DNA from: Tenuifilaceae bacterium CYCD
GTDB lineage: Bacteria > Bacteroidota > Bacteroidia > Bacteroidales > Tenuifilaceae
Reading direction: 5' to 3'
NCBI GenBank assembly: GCA_036322835.1
Contig: AP027304.1
Coordinates: forward strand, 3,286,001 to 3,350,000
Length of the DNA: 64,000 bases
Shown: positions 1,464 to 50,173 of the stretch, piece by piece
Position numbering within the stretch: the first letter of the stretch is position 1
Layout: the number at the start of each line of letters is the position of its first letter
The notes under the pieces: model-generated
Database searches by the model: none
Told to the model about the DNA's origin: nothing
Seen by the model: the letters and a program-made list of their open reading frames with translations, nothing else
Made by a program: the position numbers and the translations under genes

Positions 1464-3752
1464 ATGAAAAGACTATATAACGCAATATCAATCTGCATAT
1501 TGCTAATAATGACAACGAGTGCCGCAGAGGCTCAGCAAGCATCGAACGATTACAAAGCATCGAATTACTATGGTTTTTCATCCTCCGATAAGCAACTTGT
1601 ATTCACCGATGAGTTTAACGACGATGGGAATGGATGGGCCAATGGGGCAACTAAAAATGGTGAAGCATACGTTAGCAACGGATCTCTAATTTTCAACTCT
1701 ACAGTTGAGGATGGAGCCGCTGGTTGTACCCGATCGCTTTTCCATATCGATCAACGTAAGGACTTCGAATTTGAAACACGGCTATCGTGGATTGGCGGTG
1801 CCGAGAATAAATCGTTTTACTTTGTTTTTGGCAAAAAGCCAAGTGAGTGGAGCCGTTTTGATTTTGGCTTAAGCGGAGACGGGTACTACTTAATTGACAA
1901 AAGCTATATGAATGAGTACTCCGATATCGTTAAGTGGACCCTATCATCATATATTCAACAAAAATCATACAATACCCTTACCGTCCGAAAAGTAGGAGGT
2001 ACAATTTACTACTTTATCAATTCAAACTTAGTTTACTCAATGCCATTCGAATCGTTCTACGGCGATGAAATAGGCTATCAAATATCGGCAACCGTTAAAA
2101 TTTTTATCGATTACATAAGGGTATACTATTTAGGGGATAATTCAAGCGAAATAGCCTACAACTCCTATAATTCATCACAAAAAACATCTTTTTATTCCGA
2201 CGAATTCTATAGCGATGCCAATAATTGGGCCAATGCCGTTTCAACAAATGGCTATGCCTACGTTTCGGATGGCAACTTGTATTTCAAGTCAACCAATCCC
2301 GATGGTGCTGCAGGGTGTACAAATTTAATTTCGGGATTCGACCCCAACAGGGATTTCGAAATTGAAACATCAATGAAATATTTGAATGGCAACGATAATA
2401 AGCAGATATCGTTAGTGTTTGGTAAGAATCCCGACGAATGGAGCCGATACAATTTTGGTTTTAGCGGCAATGGCTACTACACTATTGATAAGAGTTACAA
2501 TAACGAAAACACGGATATTGTGGGTTGGACTTTCTCAAAACTAGTTGAAATTGGCTCATACAATAAGTTCACAGTTCGTAAAATAAATAATACACTCTAC
2601 TTTTACATAAACGAGTCGTTTGTGTACTCAATGCCGTTTGCTCCGTTCTACGGTAACTCATTTGGCTATCAAACCCCACAAGGAACCGAAATAGCTGTAG
2701 ACTACTTACGAATATCATACCTGAACAAAATTCAACAAATCCAAAAAGACCTAACGGCACCTACCATTACTTTGCTTGAGCCATACGTGGGCAAAGAGCA
2801 AAAAATTAGCGAGACCAACAAACAAATTATAGTCCGAGGAAAAGTCTCCGACGATAGCGGAATATACGAATTGGTTATTAACGGTGTTGAAGCAGCTATT
2901 GATCAAGCTGGCAATTTTCAGCAAGCGGTTAAACTTGCAATAGGTGATAATACAATATCCATAAGAGCAACAGATACCCAGGATAATTCTTCGTTTTACA
3001 CCTTCTACGCAAATCGAGAGGCTGTAAACGCCACCCAGATTGCAGCACAGGATATCAAACCTATGTTTAACTCTAATGAAAAACGAATTGCACTTGTAAT
3101 AGGAAACTCGAATTATGCCGGCGGGCAATACCTTAAAAATCCTGCTAACGATGCTAATTTAATGATTGAAGCATTGAAGAGTTTAGGCTTCGAGGTAATC
3201 AGCAGAACCAATGCCGACAAGAAAAATATGGAACGTGCCATCCGTGAATTCAGCGAAAAATTACCTAACTATAACGTTGCCCTCTTCTATTACGCAGGAC
3301 ACGGATTACAGGTTGATGGAGTAAACTACTTAATTCCTACCGATGCAGAGCTTACCAAAAAAGAAGATTGTAAATGGGAAGCAGTATCGGTAAACTTTGT
3401 TGTTGAAGAATTTGAAAAGTATCCCGATAATACCAATATTGTAATCCTTGACGCATGCCGAAACAATCCATTCCGATCTTGGTCCCGCGGCGGAGAACGT
3501 GGATTTAAAGCAATTGTACCTACCAGTGGCACAATCATTTCGTTCGCAACATCGGAGGGTGCAACGGCTTCCGATGGTGATGGCGCAAATGGACTTTTTA
3601 CGCAAGAATTAATTAAGCAACTTCAGGTTCAACAACCTATCGAAAGTGTATTCAAAAAAACTAGGGTTGAAGTAGAAAGACTGAGCAATGGTGCACAAAG
3701 CCCTCAGGAATGGTCTAAACTAAAAGGTGATTTCTGGTTCAAACGGCAATAA
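1464..3752 (+). CDS. Secreted caspase-like (peptidase C14) protein with two beta-sandwich repeats
   Basis: The 762-residue protein starts with a signal peptide (about residues 1-24, ending AAEAQQ), so it is exported. Residues ~47-224 and ~243-423 are two copies of the same domain, each with DEF..D..NWAN near the start, DGAAGCT, FGK.P.EWSR..FG.SG.GYY.IDKSY and Y.MPF..FYG; they look like LamG/concanavalin-type sandwiches. An Ig-like module (~433-525) carries VSDDSGI and TDTQDNSS. The C-terminal caspase/metacaspase domain runs from KRIALVIGNSNYAG (residue 540) with the catalytic dyad His613 in YYAGHG and Cys665 in LDACRNNP. Both catalytic residues are intact. Substrate and partners are unknown; it is a single gene with its own promoter-like box. 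Confidence 0.85.
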   Translation: MKRLYNAISICILLIMTTSAAEAQQASNDYKASNYYGFSSSDKQLVFTDEFNDDGNGWANGATKNGEAYVSNGSLIFNSTVEDGAAGCTRSLFHIDQRKDFEFETRLSWIGGAENKSFYFVFGKKPSEWSRFDFGLSGDGYYLIDKSYMNEYSDIVKWTLSSYIQQKSYNTLTVRKVGGTIYYFINSNLVYSMPFESFYGDEIGYQISATVKIFIDYIRVYYLGDNSSEIAYNSYNSSQKTSFYSDEFYSDANNWANAVSTNGYAYVSDGNLYFKSTNPDGAAGCTNLISGFDPNRDFEIETSMKYLNGNDNKQISLVFGKNPDEWSRYNFGFSGNGYYTIDKSYNNENTDIVGWTFSKLVEIGSYNKFTVRKINNTLYFYINESFVYSMPFAPFYGNSFGYQTPQGTEIAVDYLRISYLNKIQQIQKDLTAPTITLLEPYVGKEQKISETNKQIIVRGKVSDDSGIYELVINGVEAAIDQAGNFQQAVKLAIGDNTISIRATDTQDNSSFYTFYANREAVNATQIAAQDIKPMFNSNEKRIALVIGNSNYAGGQYLKNPANDANLMIEALKSLGFEVISRTNADKKNMERAIREFSEKLPNYNVALFYYAGHGLQVDGVNYLIPTDAELTKKEDCKWEAVSVNFVVEEFEKYPDNTNIVILDACRNNPFRSWSRGGERGFKAIVPTSGTIISFATSEGATASDGDGANGLFTQELIKQLQVQQPIESVFKKTRVEVERLSNGAQSPQEWSKLKGDFWFKRQ

Positions 3753-5005: not shown

Positions 5006-6625
5006 ATGGAAAATAGCACGAATTGGGAAGAGCAGCGAAATCAGATAATTGGGTTGGGCGAGAATTCTTTTAAAAAAAGTTACTACCCCGAGTTACAATT
5101 GAAAATTGCAGAACTTGAAACCGCCTATTCGAATCTAAACACAATTTTCAACACAATAAACGATGGCATTGTAATTCATGATGAAGAAGGTAAGATTCTT
5201 TTGCTAAACTCGCAAAGCGAAAAGATTTTTAACATACAAACTGATGAAAAAGACCAATTCTCAATATTTGATTTTTCGTCCAAGAAAATAGATTCTGAAA
5301 AACTAACTCAGATTTGGGCTGACGTTTTAAATGGCAATCCCAGGACAATAGATTGGATAATTCAGCAAAATCGAACATCGGTTGAAATCCCCGTACAAAT
5401 ATCAATAAACAGCACAATTTGGTATAGCAAAAAGGCTATTGTGGCTGTAATCCGCGATATTACAGATAGGAAACAATTCGAAAACGAACTTATTAAAGCT
5501 AAGGAGAAAGCCGAAGAAAATGACAGATTGAAAACTGCATTTTTACAGAACATGTCGCATGAGATTAGAACACCCATGAACGCCATTTGCGGGTTCTCTA
5601 ACCTACTCAACGAGCCGGATTTAGCAGATGAAAAGAAAAAGAAATTCATAGCCATTATACAGAACAGCAGCAAACAGTTACTTTCCATAGTAACCGATAT
5701 CCTTACAATATCATCACTTGAAACAAAGCAGGAAAAGGTTAATATTCAACAAACAAACATCAATAGCATAATCCTTGAACTGTACTCAATATTCAATCAA
5801 CAAGCAACTAACCAAAACATTTTGCTACGCCATACAGAGCAACTATCGGATAAACAGGCCGAAACTGTTACAGATGGTACAAAGCTCACCCAAGTATTAA
5901 CGAATTTACTTACCAATGCATTAAAATTTACCCATACTGGATCCATTGAATTCGGTTATAGCACAGAACTTATTGATAATTTGCCCTTCCTTAAATTCTA
6001 CGTGAAAGATACCGGAATTGGAATCAGTCCAACACTCCACGAAAAAATATTCGAACGGTTTAGGCAAGCAGATACATCGATAAGCCGTACATATGGAGGA
6101 ACGGGACTAGGATTATCAATCTCAAAGGCATTCGTTGAACTACTCGGAGGATCAATATGGCTAGAGTCTGAGCCAGAAAATGGTTCAACTTTTTACTTTA
6201 CAATACCCTATAATCCGGTAAACGTAACAGATTCAACTTCAAGCGATACTCAAATAAAATTAGACACAAACTACTCCACCATAATTATAGCGGAGGACGA
6301 GGAATATAACTATTTATATATCAAAGAACTTCTAAGTAGACATGATTTCAAACTCATACGCGCTAAAAACGGATATGAAGCCATTGAATTTTGGAAGCAA
6401 AATCCCGACACATCGTTAATCCTTATGGATATTAAAATGCCCATAATGGATGGCTATACAGCAGCTAAACTAATTAAAGAAATCAAACCTGATTTACCAA
6501 TAATTGCTCAATCGGCGTATGCATTAGAGAACGAAATAGAATTATTTAAAAGTGTTTTTGACGGTTACCTCACCAAACCTATTAACGCCAACGATCTAAA
6601 TAGTATTATTCAGAGATTTAAGTAA
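5006..6625 (+). CDS. PAS hybrid histidine kinase coupled to the ErcA-like gene
   Basis: A 539-residue signalling protein with no predicted membrane segment, so cytoplasmic. Order: short N-terminal region, PAS domain (~35-155, ending in VAVIRDITDRKQFE), HisKA with phospho-acceptor His185 in NMSHEIRTPMNA, HATPase_c with DTGIGISP and GGTGLGLSI (~285-400), and a C-terminal receiver with Asp475 in LILMDIKMPIMDGY and Lys in YLTKPI. It begins one base after the alcohol dehydrogenase stop. No DNA-binding regulator lies nearby, so phosphate must pass to an unlinked partner or act in cis. PAS ligand unknown. Confidence 0.9.
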   Translation: MENSTNWEEQRNQIIGLGENSFKKSYYPELQLKIAELETAYSNLNTIFNTINDGIVIHDEEGKILLLNSQSEKIFNIQTDEKDQFSIFDFSSKKIDSEKLTQIWADVLNGNPRTIDWIIQQNRTSVEIPVQISINSTIWYSKKAIVAVIRDITDRKQFENELIKAKEKAEENDRLKTAFLQNMSHEIRTPMNAICGFSNLLNEPDLADEKKKKFIAIIQNSSKQLLSIVTDILTISSLETKQEKVNIQQTNINSIILELYSIFNQQATNQNILLRHTEQLSDKQAETVTDGTKLTQVLTNLLTNALKFTHTGSIEFGYSTELIDNLPFLKFYVKDTGIGISPTLHEKIFERFRQADTSISRTYGGTGLGLSISKAFVELLGGSIWLESEPENGSTFYFTIPYNPVNVTDSTSSDTQIKLDTNYSTIIIAEDEEYNYLYIKELLSRHDFKLIRAKNGYEAIEFWKQNPDTSLILMDIKMPIMDGYTAAKLIKEIKPDLPIIAQSAYALENEIELFKSVFDGYLTKPINANDLNSIIQRFK

Positions 6626-11747: not shown

Positions 11748-11763
11748 GATCCGCCCTTTTTTC
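11733..11763. terminator. Terminator between convergent M48 and CHASE kinase genes
   Basis: AAAAGGGTGG pairs with CCGCCCTTTT (one G-T pair) around an 8-base loop and is followed by TT. It starts inside the end of the protease gene, whose stop is in the loop, and touches the kinase stop at 11762. It may serve both directions. Confidence 0.65.
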
Positions 11764-13831
11764 ATTTGAATATCTCCTTCAGTAAATTGAATAACTCTCC
11801 GTGGTCTATTGGTTTTGTGAGGTAATAGTTACATCCCGATTCCATTGCTAGCCGTTTTTCTTCTGACATAGCATATGCTGTTTGAGCAATAATGGGAATA
11901 TTAGCATTTTTTTGGCGAATTAATGCGACAGCCTCATAGCCACTCATAATCGGCATTTTAATATCCATAAGAATTAAATCTATTCTGCCGCCACTTTCAA
12001 TAATATCAACGGCTTCCCTCCCATTGCTAGCCCTAACAATATTCGCTTCGGTTTTCTCAATCAGTTTTTTAAGCAGCAAGAAGTTAAGATTATCGTCCTC
12101 GGCAATGAGTATTGTCTTGCTGTTTAAGCTTACTAACCTTTTATACGAATTAACCGGTGATTCATCAATTAGTTGACTCATAGCATAGGGCAAAACAAAA
12201 TAGAATGTAGACCCAACATTTGGAACGGATTCAACCCATATTTTACCATTCATCAACTCTACAATGGATTTACAAATTGATAATCCCAGACCCGTTCCTC
12301 CAAAATCTCTGGAAAGTTTATTGTCAACCTGTCTAAATCTTTCAAAGATGAGATCGTGAAATTCATTGGGTATACCAATTCCTGTATCATGGACAAAAAA
12401 CTTAACCTTATCTCCATCAACCGAATAACCAAATTCAACAAAACCAGCATGGGTAAACTTTATTGCATTACCTACAAGGTTGTTTATCACCTGAAAAAGA
12501 CGATATCCATCGGATGTAATAGAATCAGAACCATCTGCAAGAGCTACTTTTAAAATTAACTTTATATTCTTTTTGGCTGCGCCATGATTGTGTAAACCAA
12601 TAATATCATTCATCAACTTATTGAGCTGAACCGTTTCGGTTAATATTTTAAGTTGCCCCACCTCAATAATGGAAATGTCAATAATATCATTAATAACACC
12701 AAGCAGTTGCTTAGAACTTGTATTGATAATCTCGGTGAACTCACGGGTCATTTCTTTGCTTAAATCACTCTTAAGAAGAATCTCCGTGAAACCTTGAATG
12801 GCGTTCATGGGTGTTCTAATCTCATGCGACATGTTCGCCAAAAATGCAGTTTTTATCCGATTAGACTCCTCCGCCACTTCCTTTGCTTTTTTAAGTTCTA
12901 TCTCTATTTTCTTTCGCTCACCGATTTCTAATGCTAGCCTTTCATTCTTATCATGTATATTCTGATTCACATAAATTAGAATTGTTAGGAACACCACAAG
13001 CAACCCAGTTAGAACAATGCTAAAAATAAAATACTGCGAATGAAATACAGAATTTTCGCCCCAACCATTAATAGGAACTGCTATTAATTGCCATTTACCA
13101 CCCGGAATAGAAACATCAATTATTACTGGGTTTTGAAATAGCAAGGAGGAATCTCCCAAGAAGACCTTTCCTTCAGCACCTTTTCCATCTTCCCCCTGTA
13201 AGGCAATTTTTAAATTTTTCGAAGGATAAACACCTCCATCGCATAGAATCGAATCATAGTATGCAACAATGGATATAACCCCCCAGTATTTATTTATGCT
13301 ATCCTCCTCATTTAAAATAAACACAGGAGAACGATTTATTAGTCCTATTCCACCCTGAACCAAATGCACGGGACCAGCAAGCACAGGTTGTTGCAGGGTC
13401 ATTGCTTTAATTACGGATCCTTTCTGCTCCTCGTTTTTTAAGTATTCAAGACCTATTGCCTTTTCATTGCCAGTTAAAGGATAAACCAATTCTATTCTAT
13501 TGTTTGGAGCAAAGGCAATGTTTCTTATATACTTATTTTCCAACATCGCCATTTTTGAAAGTGCTTCAAATTGCACCTTTGACATACTCCCCTGAAAGCG
13601 AATTAAATGCACCATACCTTGGGTAAGGTTAAACGTTGAGCGAACAACTCCCTCAAGCCTATTACCAATAGTTGTAAGTTCTGACAGTACATTTAACCTT
13701 TGATTGCCTTGCTGCTTTTCGAGATCTAGCCTGCCAACTAAGAAACTTATGAATACAAATATAATTGCAATTGCCACTATCGATAATTGTAGCAATCGAA
13801 ATCGGATATTTCTAATTTTACTTTGCGACAT
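11762..13831 (-). CDS. CHASE-domain hybrid histidine kinase
   Basis: 689 residues. A membrane helix (~12-34) precedes an extracytoplasmic CHASE sensor (~60-265, with GMVHLIRFQGSMS, NIAFAPNNRIELVYPL and GPVHLVQGGIGLINRSPVF), then a second helix (~270-295) and a short coiled coil. HisKA has His336 in NMSHEIRTPMNA; HATPase_c has DTGIGIPNEF and GGTGLGLSI; the C-terminal receiver has Asp623 in LILMDIKMPIMSGY. CHASE domains bind small extracellular ligands, such as cytokinins in plants; the ligand here is unknown. The gene is alone, without a response regulator. Confidence 0.9.
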   Translation of the reverse strand: MSQSKIRNIRFRLLQLSIVAIAIIFVFISFLVGRLDLEKQQGNQRLNVLSELTTIGNRLEGVVRSTFNLTQGMVHLIRFQGSMSKVQFEALSKMAMLENKYIRNIAFAPNNRIELVYPLTGNEKAIGLEYLKNEEQKGSVIKAMTLQQPVLAGPVHLVQGGIGLINRSPVFILNEEDSINKYWGVISIVAYYDSILCDGGVYPSKNLKIALQGEDGKGAEGKVFLGDSSLLFQNPVIIDVSIPGGKWQLIAVPINGWGENSVFHSQYFIFSIVLTGLLVVFLTILIYVNQNIHDKNERLALEIGERKKIEIELKKAKEVAEESNRIKTAFLANMSHEIRTPMNAIQGFTEILLKSDLSKEMTREFTEIINTSSKQLLGVINDIIDISIIEVGQLKILTETVQLNKLMNDIIGLHNHGAAKKNIKLILKVALADGSDSITSDGYRLFQVINNLVGNAIKFTHAGFVEFGYSVDGDKVKFFVHDTGIGIPNEFHDLIFERFRQVDNKLSRDFGGTGLGLSICKSIVELMNGKIWVESVPNVGSTFYFVLPYAMSQLIDESPVNSYKRLVSLNSKTILIAEDDNLNFLLLKKLIEKTEANIVRASNGREAVDIIESGGRIDLILMDIKMPIMSGYEAVALIRQKNANIPIIAQTAYAMSEEKRLAMESGCNYYLTKPIDHGELFNLLKEIFK

Positions 13832-22966: not shown

Positions 22967-25378
22967 TTAATTAGGAAGCGAAAAGGTAAATATACTACCC
23001 TCGCCTAACTTACTTTCGACCCATATTTTGCCATCATGCTTTTCGACAAATTCCTTGCAAACTAACAACCCAAGTCCAGTTCCCCTTTCGTTGGCTGTTC
23101 CTCTCTGCGATTTACTATTGGATAAACCAAATAAGTTGCTTTTAATCTCCTCGGTCATTCCAACGCCATAGTCGTGAACATTAATCTCGATACTATCTTT
23201 AAAACTTAAAGAATAAATATCTACTTTACTATTAGGATTGCTATATTTTATTGCATTGGTTAGCAGGTTCCGAATAATGATTCTTAACAAATAGCTATCG
23301 GCTTTTACCATTAATTTATTATTGAACGAATTGATAATGATATTCTTTTTTTGGGCAACGTAAAATACATTCTCAATCTCTTCACTAATAATCGCGTCTA
23401 AGTCAATCGGTTTAGGATTAAACGTTAGCATTCCTCGCTGCGTATTTGCCCAATTCAGCAAATTCTCCAGTAATGAATTTAAATTAGTGGCAGATGAATG
23501 AATACAGTTAGAGTACTCTCCTATTTTATGCGTTTCATAGGACTCATGATTATTCACCAATAGTTCAGAAAATCCAATAACAGCATTAAGAGGATTCCGA
23601 AGATCATGGGCTATAATTGAAAAGAGTTTGTCTTTGGTCGAATTAGCCTCCGCAATTTGAATCTGGGCAATTTTACGATCGGTAATATCCTTCATGAAAC
23701 CGATCATTTCGATCGGCATGCCATCAGCATCAACTTTTACAACTTTTACTGAGGCCAATACCCACTTAATTTCTCCACTCTTGGTAATCATACGGTGTTC
23801 AAACGAATTGGCATCGTTTTCCTTTACCATACTCTCTTTTATATGATTTATTACCGTTTCTTTATCATCGGGGTGCAAAAATGATTGCATTATTGAATCA
23901 GTTGGAACTACAGATAATTCTTCCTTTGTAAATCCTAGCATATTAGCCCAAACTTCGTCAATTACTGTAGTATTTTTCGAAAAATCGGTAAACCAAAAGC
24001 CTATCCCTCCTGATCTTAGAACCATATCAAGATACTCTTTAAACTTTGTTGCTTTTTGCTCGGACTGCTTTTGAATGGTTATATCTCTAGCAATTCCCCT
24101 TAATCCTACAAAATCACCCTTATCATTAAAAATCAGGCTTGTACTTATATCAACATTGATTTCTTTTCCATTTTGCCCGTGTATTGCCTTTACCTCAAAT
24201 GCAATTACCGGCTGTAGGTTTTTAACATCCTCGGCAAAGCGCTTGCTCACTCGTTCTATCTCACTGGGTGCTAACAGATCGAAAAAACGCATACCATATA
24301 ATTCCTGGGGTTTATACCCAAAAATACTTAACGATTGAGGGCTTACATATACAAACCTTCCGTCTGGTAGTATTTCCCATGTTAAATTAGGACTTGTTTC
24401 AACCAAAGAGCGGAACTTTTCCTCACTTTCAATAAGTTTTTGCTCATTCTTCTTTATCTGTGTTATATCTCTAATTATAAAGATAATACCATACGGAATA
24501 CTACTTTCATCGCGAAGGACATCGCCATTCACACCACAGAAAGCATCCTCAGATCCATTAATACTTAATTTATACTGCTCTAATCCCAATTGTTTTTCGA
24601 ACATTAGTTTGATATTCCGTTCTGCTTTCGGTCGATCCTCTGGGGATATTATGCTGAGCAAATTTCTGCCGATATAACTTTCAGAAGTATATTTACCTAT
24701 AATATCTAAACCCTTATCGTTAATAAAGTTTATATACCCGTCGACATCAGTTTGGATAAAAATATCAGGTATGGTATAAATAATTTTTTTGTAAAGGAGC
24801 TTACTCTCTCGGAGCTGGTTCTCAATTTGTTTTTGTAGCGAGATATCGGTTATTGAGCATTGATATCCATGCATTCTACCTCTTTCATCCTTAAGAGCAA
24901 TTGCAGAAACCAATGCATCGAAACATTCGCCATCCTTTTTTACAAATCTACAAGGACTATCCTTATAGAATCCCACTCTAAACAATTCTTGGGAACACAC
25001 CTCTTTGAAGTATGTCTTTGATTCATCGGCTAAAAAATCGAAAATGCTACGTCCAATGACCTCATTCTTGCCGAACCCAAAGTTTTCAAGCCAATAATTG
25101 CTCACCCCTGTTAATCTTCCAGCATTATCTGCATTAAGAAGCATTACAGGAATATGATCAAATCTATTATCCTTAAATAATCGTACTGCTCTTCTCCAAA
25201 CAACAAGAGCAAATGCAATGGCAAATAGAATTACAAGGAATAGAATAACCGCAAAGCTTATTTCATTTAGAGTTAAAACTCTTACTAAAGATGTTTCTAG
25301 TGCAACAAAAACAACAAAAATGAATAAAATCTGTACAATTTTATTCCTATAAAGTTCCCCAACAATAAATCCCCTCAT
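22967..25378 (-). CDS. Membrane multi-PAS histidine kinase
   Basis: 803 residues. Two N-terminal membrane helices (~12-32 and ~40-62) have almost no periplasmic loop, so sensing is by the PAS domains. Four PAS modules follow (~75-190, ~195-315, ~320-440, ~445-565), several ending in a PAC-type GI..DIT or GFMKDITDR segment. HisKA has His591 in IIAHDLRNPLNAVIGF, the HDLRNPL subtype of sensor kinases rather than the SHEIRTP type of the hybrid kinases nearby. HATPase_c carries HDYGVGM and GTGLGLLVCKEF. No receiver domain. A cognate regulator is not adjacent. Confidence 0.9.
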   Translation of the reverse strand: MRGFIVGELYRNKIVQILFIFVVFVALETSLVRVLTLNEISFAVILFLVILFAIAFALVVWRRAVRLFKDNRFDHIPVMLLNADNAGRLTGVSNYWLENFGFGKNEVIGRSIFDFLADESKTYFKEVCSQELFRVGFYKDSPCRFVKKDGECFDALVSAIALKDERGRMHGYQCSITDISLQKQIENQLRESKLLYKKIIYTIPDIFIQTDVDGYINFINDKGLDIIGKYTSESYIGRNLLSIISPEDRPKAERNIKLMFEKQLGLEQYKLSINGSEDAFCGVNGDVLRDESSIPYGIIFIIRDITQIKKNEQKLIESEEKFRSLVETSPNLTWEILPDGRFVYVSPQSLSIFGYKPQELYGMRFFDLLAPSEIERVSKRFAEDVKNLQPVIAFEVKAIHGQNGKEINVDISTSLIFNDKGDFVGLRGIARDITIQKQSEQKATKFKEYLDMVLRSGGIGFWFTDFSKNTTVIDEVWANMLGFTKEELSVVPTDSIMQSFLHPDDKETVINHIKESMVKENDANSFEHRMITKSGEIKWVLASVKVVKVDADGMPIEMIGFMKDITDRKIAQIQIAEANSTKDKLFSIIAHDLRNPLNAVIGFSELLVNNHESYETHKIGEYSNCIHSSATNLNSLLENLLNWANTQRGMLTFNPKPIDLDAIISEEIENVFYVAQKKNIIINSFNNKLMVKADSYLLRIIIRNLLTNAIKYSNPNSKVDIYSLSFKDSIEINVHDYGVGMTEEIKSNLFGLSNSKSQRGTANERGTGLGLLVCKEFVEKHDGKIWVESKLGEGSIFTFSLPN

Positions 25379-25565: not shown

Positions 25566-28229
25566 TCAGATATACTTACTTAAAGTCTCGAAAAGTAGTA
25601 TTTGAGCAATTGGCTTGGTAACAAAGTCGACACATCCCGCTTGCAAACATTTTGATTTATCCTCATCGGATGCATAGGCCGTTTGGGCTATGATTTTTAA
25701 ATCACCACGCTCCTTTAGCATTTTTTTGGTAAGGTCGAATCCGTTGGTATCGGGCAAGCGAATATCCATTAAAACGAGGTCTATATGACCATTTTCACGA
25801 AACACATTAATTGCGCTGATTCCATCCTTTGCCTTAAGCAATTTAGCATTGGTAGGTCTGAATAGTTCAACAAGGTAATCCATATTATAGTCAACGTCCT
25901 CCACTATAAGGATTGTTTTACCCGAATAATCAATCTTTTTATCTTTTGTTGTAGGTTGCTTTTGTACCTGATCCTCCTGAATAGGTTTATAAGGAATAGT
26001 AAAGAAAAACGTTGATCCTTTTTCTATTTCGGATTCAACCCAAATCTTTCCTCCTAAAAGATCAATAATTCCTTTGCAGATAGAAAGCCCCAGCCCTGTT
26101 CCACCATACTCACGGGCCAGATACGATTCATCAACCTGCCTAAAGCGTTCAAAAACTAGTTCGAGATTCTCTTTTGAGATTCCTATTCCAGTATCTTTAA
26201 CCGAGAATTGCAGGTTACTAGCATCAACAAGCTTACATCCAACAATTATCTCACCCTTAGGGGTATATTTATGAGCATTATCAATTAAGTTGATTAGTAT
26301 TTGTTTAAGTCTATCAAAGTCGGTTTTAATTATATTTTGCCCATCAACCAACTCATTATTCACCTCGAATCTGATTGATTTTGGCGAAAGTTCTTCCTCC
26401 CGAATCGTAAAGAAATTATTAATTTCGGTTAGGATATCGTTTACATTTCCTTTTCTTTCACTAATTCTTAATGTATGCGATTCTATCCTAGCAATATCCA
26501 GAATATCATTAATGATATTTAGCAAATCCTTGGTCCGTTGACGAATTGTTTTGGTGAACATTTTACGCTTCTCGAAAGGCATATCCTCCATATCAAGAAT
26601 ATCGGCAAAGCCCATAATGGCATTCATCGGAGTACGAATCTCGTGGCTCATGTTGGCCAGAAATGCCGATTTCAGCCTATCGCTCTCCTCGGCTTGCCGC
26701 CTAGCTTCGTCTAACTTTTGCAAATTCTCCCGCAACGCTTCATTGGTAGTAAGCAATTCTTCGTTTGTTGATCGCAGTTCCTCCTCGGCGGTTTGAAGCT
26801 CATAGTTCATCATCTGCAAATCGATCTCAACCTTTTTTTGCTCGGTAATATCGCTCGATACACCAAATACGCGTTTTGCCTTGCCATTTTCATCGCGCTC
26901 AATTTCGGCAAAAGTCAAAAGATACTGCAACTCACCATCGGGCTTGTAGCGTCGATATAAATTTGAATAATTATCGAGGTTTGCCAGAGCATCCTGCAGA
27001 TAATATCGAGTTTCGTCTCTATCGTCAGGATGAATGCTGTTGTACATCTCTTCAACGCTCAAAATATTACTATCTAGACCTGTAATCTTTGCTAGGCTAT
27101 CCGAAAGTTTAAAGGTTTTAGTTTTAATATCGTAGTAGAACTCGCCTACTTTGGCAATTTCCTGAGCTTTAACTAAAAGCGCATTCTTCTCTCGAAGAAT
27201 ATTTTCCATTTGCACCCTCTCAGTAATATCATCTATACTAACTAAGATTGTTGACTTATCACCGAAATCAATGTATAGCGTAGATATTAGCGTGTTACGT
27301 TCAAATACATTATCCAATTTCCCCATTGTAAGTTTCGACTCACGCTTGTACAAATTCGCATGGGTTTCGATTGTATATTTTATAGAATTATTCAAAACAC
27401 AACTACTGCAACTTGGCGTATACCCACATCTATCATTCTCATCCTGTAAGCTATTACAGTTTATAACTTCGCCAGGAAATAGACCGATTACCTCTTGAGC
27501 ACTTTTATCTGATAAACTAAGGCAAGCATGGTTGGCCTTCAATACGCGACCATTCATGTCAAGTAGCATCATCAGTAATGGAGTGCTATCGAAAATAGCC
27601 AATAACTGCTTTTCGTTCTCCACTAATTCCATCTCAGCCTGTTTGCGAGCTGTAATATCACGGAATGCAACAATGCGAACCTGTTTTCCTTGATACAAGA
27701 TTGGCTTACTGTTAATCTCACCCCAGAGAATATCCCCATTCTTCTTTCGGGTAAGAATTTCATACACCACTGCGTCCTTTTTTAACGAATTGTTGTAAGA
27801 TATACGCCTATAATCCATATCTACCATCAATTCAATAATATTCTCTCCAACCAATTCATCCCTGCTATAACCCGTAATGTTGGAAAAAGCTTTATTAATA
27901 TCAATGACAATGCCATTATCATGGATTACAATTCCTTCAAAAGTTAAATCGGCTAGAACATGATACTTTTCCTCACTAGTGTTTGGTTCTTTTTTCCTTC
28001 TCCTAGAAATCCAGTATATAAATAACCCCGAAAGCAGAACAAAACCCCAACCCTTGTATATGCTTATCACTCTGATAAGTTTTATATCAATGAGTAAAAC
28101 GCTTACCAAGTAATCGGAGAGCACGATATATACACAACTAATTACTACATAGATAGTTGATATTCGAATAGCGGGACTTGTTTTATAACTTTTCACCAAC
28201 TTCTTTATGTCTTTCCCTTTAATACTCAT
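25566..28229 (-). CDS. Multi-PAS hybrid histidine kinase with receiver domain
   Basis: 887 residues. Two closely spaced membrane helices (~21-44, ~55-75), then PAS (~88-200, GYSRDELVGENIIEL), a second PAS with an unusual Cys-rich loop (CNSLQDENDRCGYTPSCSSC, about residues 254-273), a third PAS (~350-465), and a coiled coil (~465-515). HisKA has His529 in NMSHEIRTPMNAIMGF, HATPase_c has DTGIGISKENL and GGTGLGLSICKG, and the receiver has Asp822 in LVLMDIRLPDTNGF. The Cys cluster could bind a metal or Fe-S cluster, or form disulfides; that is speculation. Transcribed away from the xdh genes. Confidence 0.9.
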   Translation of the reverse strand: MSIKGKDIKKLVKSYKTSPAIRISTIYVVISCVYIVLSDYLVSVLLIDIKLIRVISIYKGWGFVLLSGLFIYWISRRRKKEPNTSEEKYHVLADLTFEGIVIHDNGIVIDINKAFSNITGYSRDELVGENIIELMVDMDYRRISYNNSLKKDAVVYEILTRKKNGDILWGEINSKPILYQGKQVRIVAFRDITARKQAEMELVENEKQLLAIFDSTPLLMMLLDMNGRVLKANHACLSLSDKSAQEVIGLFPGEVINCNSLQDENDRCGYTPSCSSCVLNNSIKYTIETHANLYKRESKLTMGKLDNVFERNTLISTLYIDFGDKSTILVSIDDITERVQMENILREKNALLVKAQEIAKVGEFYYDIKTKTFKLSDSLAKITGLDSNILSVEEMYNSIHPDDRDETRYYLQDALANLDNYSNLYRRYKPDGELQYLLTFAEIERDENGKAKRVFGVSSDITEQKKVEIDLQMMNYELQTAEEELRSTNEELLTTNEALRENLQKLDEARRQAEESDRLKSAFLANMSHEIRTPMNAIMGFADILDMEDMPFEKRKMFTKTIRQRTKDLLNIINDILDIARIESHTLRISERKGNVNDILTEINNFFTIREEELSPKSIRFEVNNELVDGQNIIKTDFDRLKQILINLIDNAHKYTPKGEIIVGCKLVDASNLQFSVKDTGIGISKENLELVFERFRQVDESYLAREYGGTGLGLSICKGIIDLLGGKIWVESEIEKGSTFFFTIPYKPIQEDQVQKQPTTKDKKIDYSGKTILIVEDVDYNMDYLVELFRPTNAKLLKAKDGISAINVFRENGHIDLVLMDIRLPDTNGFDLTKKMLKERGDLKIIAQTAYASDEDKSKCLQAGCVDFVTKPIAQILLFETLSKYI

Positions 28230-48901: not shown

Positions 48902-49315
48902 CTAAATTGAATCAGAACAAACATTGCAGGTGAATGGAATTTTAATATTCGAGTATTCCATCAACTCATAGCCAGCATCACGCATATCATCGTCTTCAGG
49001 CTCATATTGCCACTCCATACTAACAGGTATCCCCGCAATCACAAACTCGTTCATTTTCTGCAAAAATGTAATTAAATATTTATACGATGCAGAGTTTATG
49101 TATTTAAAGAATAATCTCAATTTTATTGGTTTTGCACTTCCAATACCTGTTTTGTGAAGTTCGGTTAAATAGTCGTCGAGCCATTTCATGACTGGATCGA
49201 AGAAATTGGAGATATTTTCGGGATGGCTAACACCTACAATAGAAAAATTCCCTGTTTGAGGCTCAAAAACCACTTCAGGAGAATCTTTTTTTGGTAGTAC
49301 GTGTAACTGTTTCAT
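48902..49315 (-). CDS. SiaC-like (DUF1987) regulatory phosphoprotein, third paralogue
   Basis: 137 residues. Same fold as its two upstream neighbours, with conserved positions SPEVVFEPQTGNFSIVGVSHPENI and FFKYINSASYKYLITFL. At the phospho-acceptor site that is Thr68 in P. aeruginosa SiaC and in both neighbours, this copy has Ser75 (NSAS instead of NTAS). A longer N-terminus and a Cys-containing C-terminus (IPFTCNVCSDS) also set it apart. It may be phosphorylated on Ser, or be a decoy. Last gene of a three-gene row. Confidence 0.82.
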   Translation of the reverse strand: MKQLHVLPKKDSPEVVFEPQTGNFSIVGVSHPENISNFFDPVMKWLDDYLTELHKTGIGSAKPIKLRLFFKYINSASYKYLITFLQKMNEFVIAGIPVSMEWQYEPEDDDMRDAGYELMEYSNIKIPFTCNVCSDSI

Positions 49316-49347
49316 CGCTCTAAAAGGATTTATAGTAAAGTATAAAG

Positions 49348-49731
49348 TTAATCAATTGGTTTAGCAATCATTTCAAAGGGGACGTTAAGCAACTCTGCAA
49401 ATTCCTCCCCTGCTTCCTCCAACTCAGCGTCTAGCTGAGGATACTTCCAAGTTATAAGAACATCGTGCCCATTCTTATGTAATTCTTTTACTTTATTTAA
49501 AAGAATAAGCAACATTTTAGATGATGCCGTATTAAAATAATCAAAATCTAGAATTAAGTTAGTACTAGGATTTGGATTCTTAATGTAAATATCCCACCAC
49601 TGAATCATTGGGAGATAATACGACTTAACATCTTCAGGCAAAGATCTTCCTTGCATCACAAAAACACCCGTTGTTCTGTCAAATTCAACAAAAGGGGTAA
49701 TCGGCGTAGCCTCAAGGAAAAACCTATCCAT
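49348..49731 (-). CDS. SiaC-like (DUF1987) regulatory phosphoprotein, second paralogue
   Basis: 127 residues, DUF1987. It has TPFVEFDRTTGVFVMQGRSLPEDVKSYY, then FDYFNTASSKMLLILLNKV with the phospho-site Thr68. SiaC in Pseudomonas is an unphosphorylated activator of the diguanylate cyclase SiaD; its phosphorylation by the SiaB kinase and dephosphorylation by the SiaA phosphatase control biofilm formation. None of those partners is next to this row. It lies 6 bases after the first paralogue and 32 bases before the third. Confidence 0.85.
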   Translation of the reverse strand: MDRFFLEATPITPFVEFDRTTGVFVMQGRSLPEDVKSYYLPMIQWWDIYIKNPNPSTNLILDFDYFNTASSKMLLILLNKVKELHKNGHDVLITWKYPQLDAELEEAGEEFAELLNVPFEMIAKPID

Positions 49732-49737
49732 AACTAT

Positions 49738-50127
49738 CTATTTTGAAACAGATTGAAAACTAATCATCTTAAAGGGAACTTCAAGCATATCGGCATAATC
49801 AGCGCCGGCATCCTGCATATCTTCATCATCCTCCTGATAATACCACTCAATAACTACACTTTTACCAGCTTCGTGCATCTCGTTAAGCACTTCAAAAAGT
49901 TCAAGAATCATCTTTGACGATGCCGTATTGAAATAATCCATCTTGATTTTAAGAGTAGTTGAAGGATTTGGAGAATCGGCATAACTTTTTAACCATTTAA
50001 GCAATGGATTGTAAAATTCTTTTACATCTTCAGGCAATGATTTTCCCGACAACTCGAACATATTACTTGCTGGATCAAAAAGCACCTCTGGTGTTTCGGG
50101 TGTTCCTTTGATATTTAGTGTATCCAT
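49738..50127 (-). CDS. SiaC-like (DUF1987) regulatory phosphoprotein, first paralogue
   Basis: 129 residues, DUF1987. TPEVLFDPASNMFELSGKSLPEDVKEFY is followed by MDYFNTASSKMILELFEVLNEMH with Thr68 at the site phosphorylated in P. aeruginosa SiaC. The conserved acidic stretch QEDDEDMQDAGADYADML is at the C-terminus. Close to the second copy, less so to the third. A TATATTTG box lies 39 bases upstream, so the row of three is probably one transcript. Confidence 0.87.
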   Translation of the reverse strand: MDTLNIKGTPETPEVLFDPASNMFELSGKSLPEDVKEFYNPLLKWLKSYADSPNPSTTLKIKMDYFNTASSKMILELFEVLNEMHEAGKSVVIEWYYQEDDEDMQDAGADYADMLEVPFKMISFQSVSK

Positions 50128-50165: not shown

Positions 50166-50173
50166 CAAATATA
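50166..50173 (-). promoter_or_regulatory. Putative -7 box (TATATTTG) of the SiaC-like row
   Basis: Minus-strand TATATTTG, exact consensus, 38 bases before the first SiaC-like ATG. The gap 50128-50269 separates it from the molybdoenzyme genes. Confidence 0.5.

Follow-up and report, generated by a model that had tools for sequence, protein, structure and literature searches.

A conserved gene trio of SiaC-type proteins with Thr, Thr and Ser acceptors, and the SiaC repertoire to which it belongs

The window that we analysed, a 64-kb stretch of a closed 3.92-Mb Bacteroidota genome, contains three siaC genes arranged head to tail on the minus strand, with 6 bp separating copies 1 and 2 and 32 bp separating copies 2 and 3 (Table 1). 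This trio is a real, conserved SiaC-type feature, and its main interest is the repertoire that it belongs to, more than the three tandem copies as such. A profile search of the source genome found 16 SiaC genes, all of which pass the family cut-off; for nearly every one of them orthologues could be assigned in five or six genera, which gives about 16 lines. We consider it probable that the three genes form a single operon, and that their products are non-equivalent SiaC partner-switch proteins drawn from this family-wide set of about 16 lines. They would be phosphorylated by SiaB in trans and reset by a sensor PP2C, and the unphosphorylated form would bind a line-specific partner, the likeliest partner of another branch being a TerB/ABC-2 transporter.

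Table 1. Positions within the 64-kb window of the three siaC genes, their predicted acceptor codons and the putative promoter element.
Feature	Position	Strand	Description	Basis
siaC copy 1	49738..50127	-	129 aa; Thr68 acceptor (YFNTASSK); first gene of the trio	PF09345, 147.3 bits
siaC copy 2	49348..49731	-	127 aa; Thr68 acceptor (YFNTASSK)	PF09345, 114.3 bits; own orthogroup
siaC copy 3	48902..49315	-	137 aa; Ser75 acceptor (YINSASYK)	PF09345, 93.9 bits; AlphaFold2 model
Copy 1 Thr68 codon	49924..49926	-	predicted phospho-acceptor	alignment with SiaC Thr68
Copy 2 Thr68 codon	49528..49530	-	predicted phospho-acceptor	alignment of the trio copies
Copy 3 Ser75 codon	49091..49093	-	predicted phospho-acceptor	two alignments and start of helix 75-93 in the model
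TAnnTTTG (TATATTTG)	50166..50173	-	putative -7 promoter element of the trio; 46 nt upstream of the copy 1 ATG	

A first-pass annotation of this DNA had described the genes as three DUF1987 paralogues, and over their whole length all three proteins do fall within the Pfam SiaC profile (PF09345, DUF1987), with scores of 93.9-147.3 bits against a cut-off of 24.5. Pfam returned SiaC alone, with no match to STAS (PF01740) in the trio. The NCBIfam SiaC model matched the trio as well (62.6, 76.0 and 88.9 bits), below its strict 150-bit equivalog threshold. Residues 1-121 of copy 1 aligned end to end with SiaC of Pseudomonas aeruginosa (6kko; E 6e-15), placing Thr68 on Thr68 (YFNTAS over YLNTSS), and Ser75 of copy 3 occupies the same column in a profile of the trio and its orthologues. 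The acceptors claimed at residues 68, 68 and 75 are thus aligned both with each other and with Thr68 of a solved SiaC. The fold was checked with a model for copy 3 and by sequence alone for copies 1 and 2. The AlphaFold2 model of copy 3 (mean pLDDT 92.5) has Ser75 as the first residue of helix 75-93, a placement that parallels Thr68 at the N-terminal part of SiaC alpha2. Its best eight PDB matches are all SiaC chains, whether free, SiaB-bound or SiaD-bound (TM 0.77-0.81 by query length), and the best of them is SiaC in 6kko. A phosphorylatable residue is retained in all three copies. A decoy among them had been suggested, and none looks like a dead one.

Within the family, whose named relatives are uncultured Bacteroidales MAGs such as ADurb.Bin008, UBA1064, UBA2287 and UBA4073, an orthologue of copy 3 is present in 19 of 21 genomes, the source genome included. 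Beyond these, G001 has a copy 3 fragment at a contig end, and none was seen in G012, a genome that is 63% complete. The T/T/S pattern, which had been read as meaningful, is kept in every trio read from the family, always in that order: Thr in 19 of 19 copy 1 orthologues, Thr in 18 of 18 for copy 2 and Ser in 18 of 18 for copy 3. In one genome copy 3 is broken by a stop codon (G007:C12:75476-75886); it is intact in three relatives of the same genus.

The surroundings of the trio are less constant. Upstream, on the same strand, the window and several genera have genes for a molybdoenzyme and a 4Fe-4S/DmsC-like subunit, other genera have 2-oxoacid dehydrogenase E2-E1 and flavodoxin genes (named by eye), and one genus has a coiled-coil protein gene alone. 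On the downstream side lies either a phosphofructokinase gene in convergent orientation or a set of ECF-sigma-like genes. The sequence TAnnTTTG is the -7 consensus of Bacteroidota promoters, and it occurs 44-76 nt before the trio's first start codon in all 22 distinct upstream regions, whatever the upstream gene. Because this element stays constant while the surroundings change, the trio is best seen as its own operon. We also considered that the trio might serve the upstream enzymes, as its position behind the molybdoenzyme and 4Fe-4S/DmsC-like genes in the window and several genera could suggest. This is very unlikely, given the different upstream genes of the other genera and the promoter-like element that the trio retains throughout, and both the molybdoenzyme and the E1/E2/flavodoxin neighbours were rejected as targets since they differ between genera. 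No kinase, phosphatase or partner gene was linked to the trio in any relative.

To place the copies we used a set of 162 SiaC domains (the complete or almost complete SiaC sets of seven family genomes, together with the trio copies of other genomes and three outgroups) and a tree of 124 columns from which the acceptor column was left out; its deep branches are weak. The trio copies fall in three separate orthogroups. Copy 2 groups with the line of C1:1896971, a SiaC beside a two-component system (SH-aLRT 93), copy 3 forms one clade with the Ser line of C1:2952115 (SH-aLRT 96), and copy 1 stands apart from both groups. Copies that are adjacent and on the same strand could have arisen by a recent tandem duplication and have a redundant, dosage-like function, but this is hardly credible here: the copies are 32-46% identical, each belongs to an orthogroup of its own that is common to the whole family, and copies 1 and 2 are each closer to distant loci than to one another. 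Identities and tree together contradict a local tandem duplication. Copy 3 in particular is 32% identical to its trio neighbours as against 43% to the Ser-type SiaC at C1:2952115, which on sequence grounds assigns it to an older Ser class. The series with one changed acceptor that the first-pass annotation had envisaged does not agree with this placement, in which copy 3 is not an altered sister of its neighbours.

By orthogroup (about 16), the acceptor is Thr in eight, Ser in six, Gly in one and mixed Ser/Thr in one (C1:2362471); one of the Thr lines shows Ser in a single genome. The tree requires seven acceptor changes, compared with 21-36 in 300 label shuffles which ignore relatedness; the figure thus tells us only that acceptor and ancestry go together and is no evidence of selection. 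The stronger point is that the acceptor stays constant inside lines in which up to half of the remaining positions vary. Just one copy has an unphosphorylatable residue, a Gly-acceptor SiaC (FVNGCSEH; L039:8613-9020, equivalent to C1:1641612-1642019). Since a single T68A SiaC is still functional in P. aeruginosa (PMC8457831), this Gly copy, not switchable at the acceptor site, may by analogy be permanently active rather than dead.

The window contains no SiaB, SpoIIE-type PP2C or GGDEF gene, consistent with the earlier statement that no SiaB, SiaA or SiaD is adjacent to the trio. Profile searches of the whole genome found five SiaB/DUF6272 (PF19788) kinases and 28 SpoIIE-type PP2C domains, all outside the window. 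SiaB is therefore not missing but supplied in trans by the five siaB genes elsewhere in the genome. The SiaB copies match the solved SiaB (6kko_A), and all five have an unchanged Glu68 and Asn72, which lie in the region around Glu61, the residue predicted to be catalytic in P. aeruginosa SiaB. By contrast with P. aeruginosa, GGDEF domains were not found in the source genome or in any of the 30 relatives searched, using a profile search that was positive in eight of 14 control genomes. The trio's partners therefore cannot be SiaD, and a c-di-GMP output like that of Pseudomonas is excluded to the extent that GGDEF is its hallmark. The four histidine kinases that had also been pointed out are all present in the window (5006-6625, 11762-13831, 22967-25378 and 25566-28229; three of the four are hybrids with a receiver domain); they lie more than 20 kb from the trio, and nothing ties them to it.

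The repertoire is a property of the family. All 18 same-family relatives carry 11-21 SiaC and 4-10 SiaB domains and no GGDEF, and the 11-21 SiaC are maintained even in family genomes of 2.4-2.5 Mb. Among 147 other Bacteroidota genomes, drawn evenly, SiaC was found in just seven, with one to three copies each.

The trio resembles RsbV/SpoIIAA STAS antagonists and other partner switches (HsbA, BgrV, SypA) in the combination of small phosphoprotein, GHKL-type kinase and PP2C phosphatase, and Ser acceptors are usual in RsbV/SpoIIAA-type switches. It differs from the STAS antagonists in sequence family, which is SiaC and not PF01740. The STAS proteins of the source genome are three, two small and one transporter-sized, and none is a SiaC. 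With one or two RsbW-like kinases besides, these small numbers leave few rival substrates for the PP2Cs.

Candidate kinases, phosphatases and partners are encoded beside other SiaC lines. One line lies in a full operon encoding a CheR-like protein (by eye), a CheB-like protein, a GAF protein, a GAF-PAS-PAS-SpoIIE phosphatase, SiaB, SiaC, a 1028-aa transporter and a possible lipoprotein (by eye). The phosphatase domain beside siaB matches the NCBIfam SiaA model with an E value of 7e-53, far under that model's equivalog cut-off, and the 1028-aa protein combines TerB, ABC ATPase and ABC-2 membrane domains. A second siaB-siaC line faces a second copy of this transporter. Next to siaB-siaC, the TerB/ABC-2 transporter recurs in six families (f1 and the outgroup families f20, f21, f7, f8 and f11), several of them with the same PP2C, and by gene order and analogy with P. 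aeruginosa it is the best candidate partner of that siaB-siaC branch. An arrangement of the siaA-siaB-siaC type is present for another SiaC of the genome (C1:1589602-1593225); the trio is without one.

A further siaB is stably paired with two Ser-type SiaC genes (C1:828817-830112), which hints that it encodes the kinase for the Ser class; it might also serve copy 3. This pairing bears on a reading in which the Ser protein, copy 3, acts as a sink or decoy, drawing the same SiaB or phosphatase away from copies 1 and 2 and so creating a threshold. The joint conservation of two Thr forms and one Ser form in a single operon would fit, as would five kinases for 16 substrates. However, Ser and Thr both serve as acceptors in such switches, copy 3 is a long-lived line with conserved features of its own and a Ser sister line elsewhere, and the siaB that accompanies two further Ser-type copies points to a separate channel for Ser proteins more than to competition. 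We regard a sink as unlikely.

Under the partner-switch scheme that we favour, each of the three copies would be phosphorylated at the tip of helix 2 (Thr68, Thr68 and Ser75) by one or another of the few SiaB kinases encoded elsewhere, and a SpoIIE-type PP2C carrying sensor domains would remove the phosphate and reset SiaC. Each unphosphorylated copy would bind and switch its own line-specific partner, a contact that phosphorylation would block. That the unphosphorylated form would be the active one is drawn by analogy with P. aeruginosa, where the acceptor helix of SiaC makes the contact with the partner, SiaC is active when unphosphorylated, and phosphorylated Thr68 blocks binding (PMC8457831); DUF1987 proteins have been suggested to modulate adjacent proteins more generally (PMC8457831). 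We infer the phosphorylation itself, the active state, the pairing of SiaB with each copy and the trio's partners; the genes, their family and fold, the acceptor register, the conserved T/T/S order, the promoter-like element, the kinases and phosphatases in trans and the absence of GGDEF are observed.

Alternatively, the SiaC paralogues could be classical anti-sigma-factor antagonists, such that unphosphorylated SiaC binds an anti-sigma factor or kinase and frees a sigma factor, and the trio tunes transcription instead of an enzyme or transporter. The SiaC fold is nearest to that of anti-sigma antagonists (PMC7647112). In each of the four genomes with a Gly-type SiaC, its gene lies behind an ECF-sigma-like gene and two small genes, and the SiaC gene at C1:2571312 adjoins serine-protease-like and RpoD-like sigma genes in seven of seven genomes (neighbours named by eye); in some genera an ECF sigma/anti-sigma-like gene pair comes after the trio. 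We nevertheless think this reading rather unlikely, since sigma neighbours of the trio are limited to those genera, no sigma gene is linked to any of the five siaB genes, and it is a transporter that accompanies siaBC most consistently from family to family.

Compared with SiaABCD of P. aeruginosa, the source genome shares the SiaC family and fold, the acceptor at the start of helix 2, kinases of the SiaB family and a SiaA-like PP2C. It differs in having neither SiaD nor any other GGDEF protein, 16 SiaC instead of one, a kinase unlinked to the trio, Ser or Gly as the acceptor in half of its copies, and the TerB/ABC-2 transporter as the candidate partner of one branch. Three outgroup Bacteroidota siaB-siaC operons (L204-L206), in which SiaC is single copy, all have the SiaB-SiaC pair, and in two of them a PP2C gene precedes the pair and a gene for a SiaD-like GGDEF protein follows it. 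In those two, the operon runs SpoIIE-type gene-siaB-siaC-GGDEF, closed by the GGDEF protein (L205:5994-6740 and L206:7193-8023), whose stalk reads KITRIGDSTQ or KMTKIGDGTQ. In L204 its place is taken by a histidine kinase, encoded by the third gene of the siaBC operon (L204:8091-9155), that lacks GGDEF but has the stalk KITRISDSTQ.

In P. aeruginosa, S82 and Q86 of SiaD contact Thr68 of SiaC (PMC8457831), and the spacing in the outgroup stalks fits S82...Q86. Searched alone against the PDB, these stalks, a short and plain helix, gave no significant match. The link to SiaD comes from this spacing and from the full-length L205 protein, which matches SiaD 7e6g_A over stalk and cyclase (query 39-246, judged by the matched span). 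From these sequences, the outgroup operons appear to have kept the docking stalk and exchanged the output domain. A scan of 1.09 Mb (28%) of the source genome gave no significant hit to a SiaD-type stalk motif, and partner binding there may therefore use another surface.

In the literature that we searched, with subscription papers outside its scope, SiaC has been studied only in P. aeruginosa, as the activator of one diguanylate cyclase. The papers on the SiaABC switch concern that species, DUF1987 appears in a single paper, and neither DUF6272 nor 'SiaC family' was found. A family with 11-21 SiaC and no GGDEF makes SiaC a general protein switch with other outputs. More tentatively, and with somewhat less than even confidence, we propose a c-di-GMP-free, multi-channel partner-switch network in which about 16 SiaC lines with Thr, Ser or unphosphorylatable Gly acceptors form insulated channels served by five SiaB. 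The partner would have been exchanged in evolution (GGDEF cyclase, histidine kinase or TerB/ABC transporter), and the T-T-S operon would be the single place that always makes two Thr channels and one Ser channel together. Ready comparisons exist between members of the same protein family with Thr, Ser or Gly acceptors and between versions of the same operon that end in a cyclase, a histidine kinase or a transporter. What else SiaC switches, and how parallel partner switches stay apart, can now be tested with purified proteins.

Fusion proteins occur in other Bacteroidales families, in the form of a SiaB-SiaC protein (L189:5924-6799, 291 aa) and a SiaB-SiaB-SiaC protein (L131:5822-7330, 502 aa), and two-domain SiaB proteins also occur in relatives. 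The SiaB-SiaC fusions support kinase-substrate pairing in this lineage. In G005, a 715-aa HEAT-repeat protein ends in two SiaC domains (L124:3605-5752) and is followed by a two-domain SiaC protein (5756-6508). The second domain of two-domain SiaC proteins is without an acceptor, having Arg, Lys or Gln at that position (Arg in both L124 proteins).

The same-looking transposase ORF (313 aa, beginning MNFIDFVKKYPDEASC, with the first 60 residues identical) lies near four siaC/siaB loci of the source genome (L034, L037, L043 and L045), in one case between siaB and the next conserved gene. Elsewhere in the window, a 762-aa protein encoded on the plus strand (1464-3752) carries a C-terminal caspase domain (Peptidase_C14, E 3e-40) together with a glucodextranase-B-like domain.
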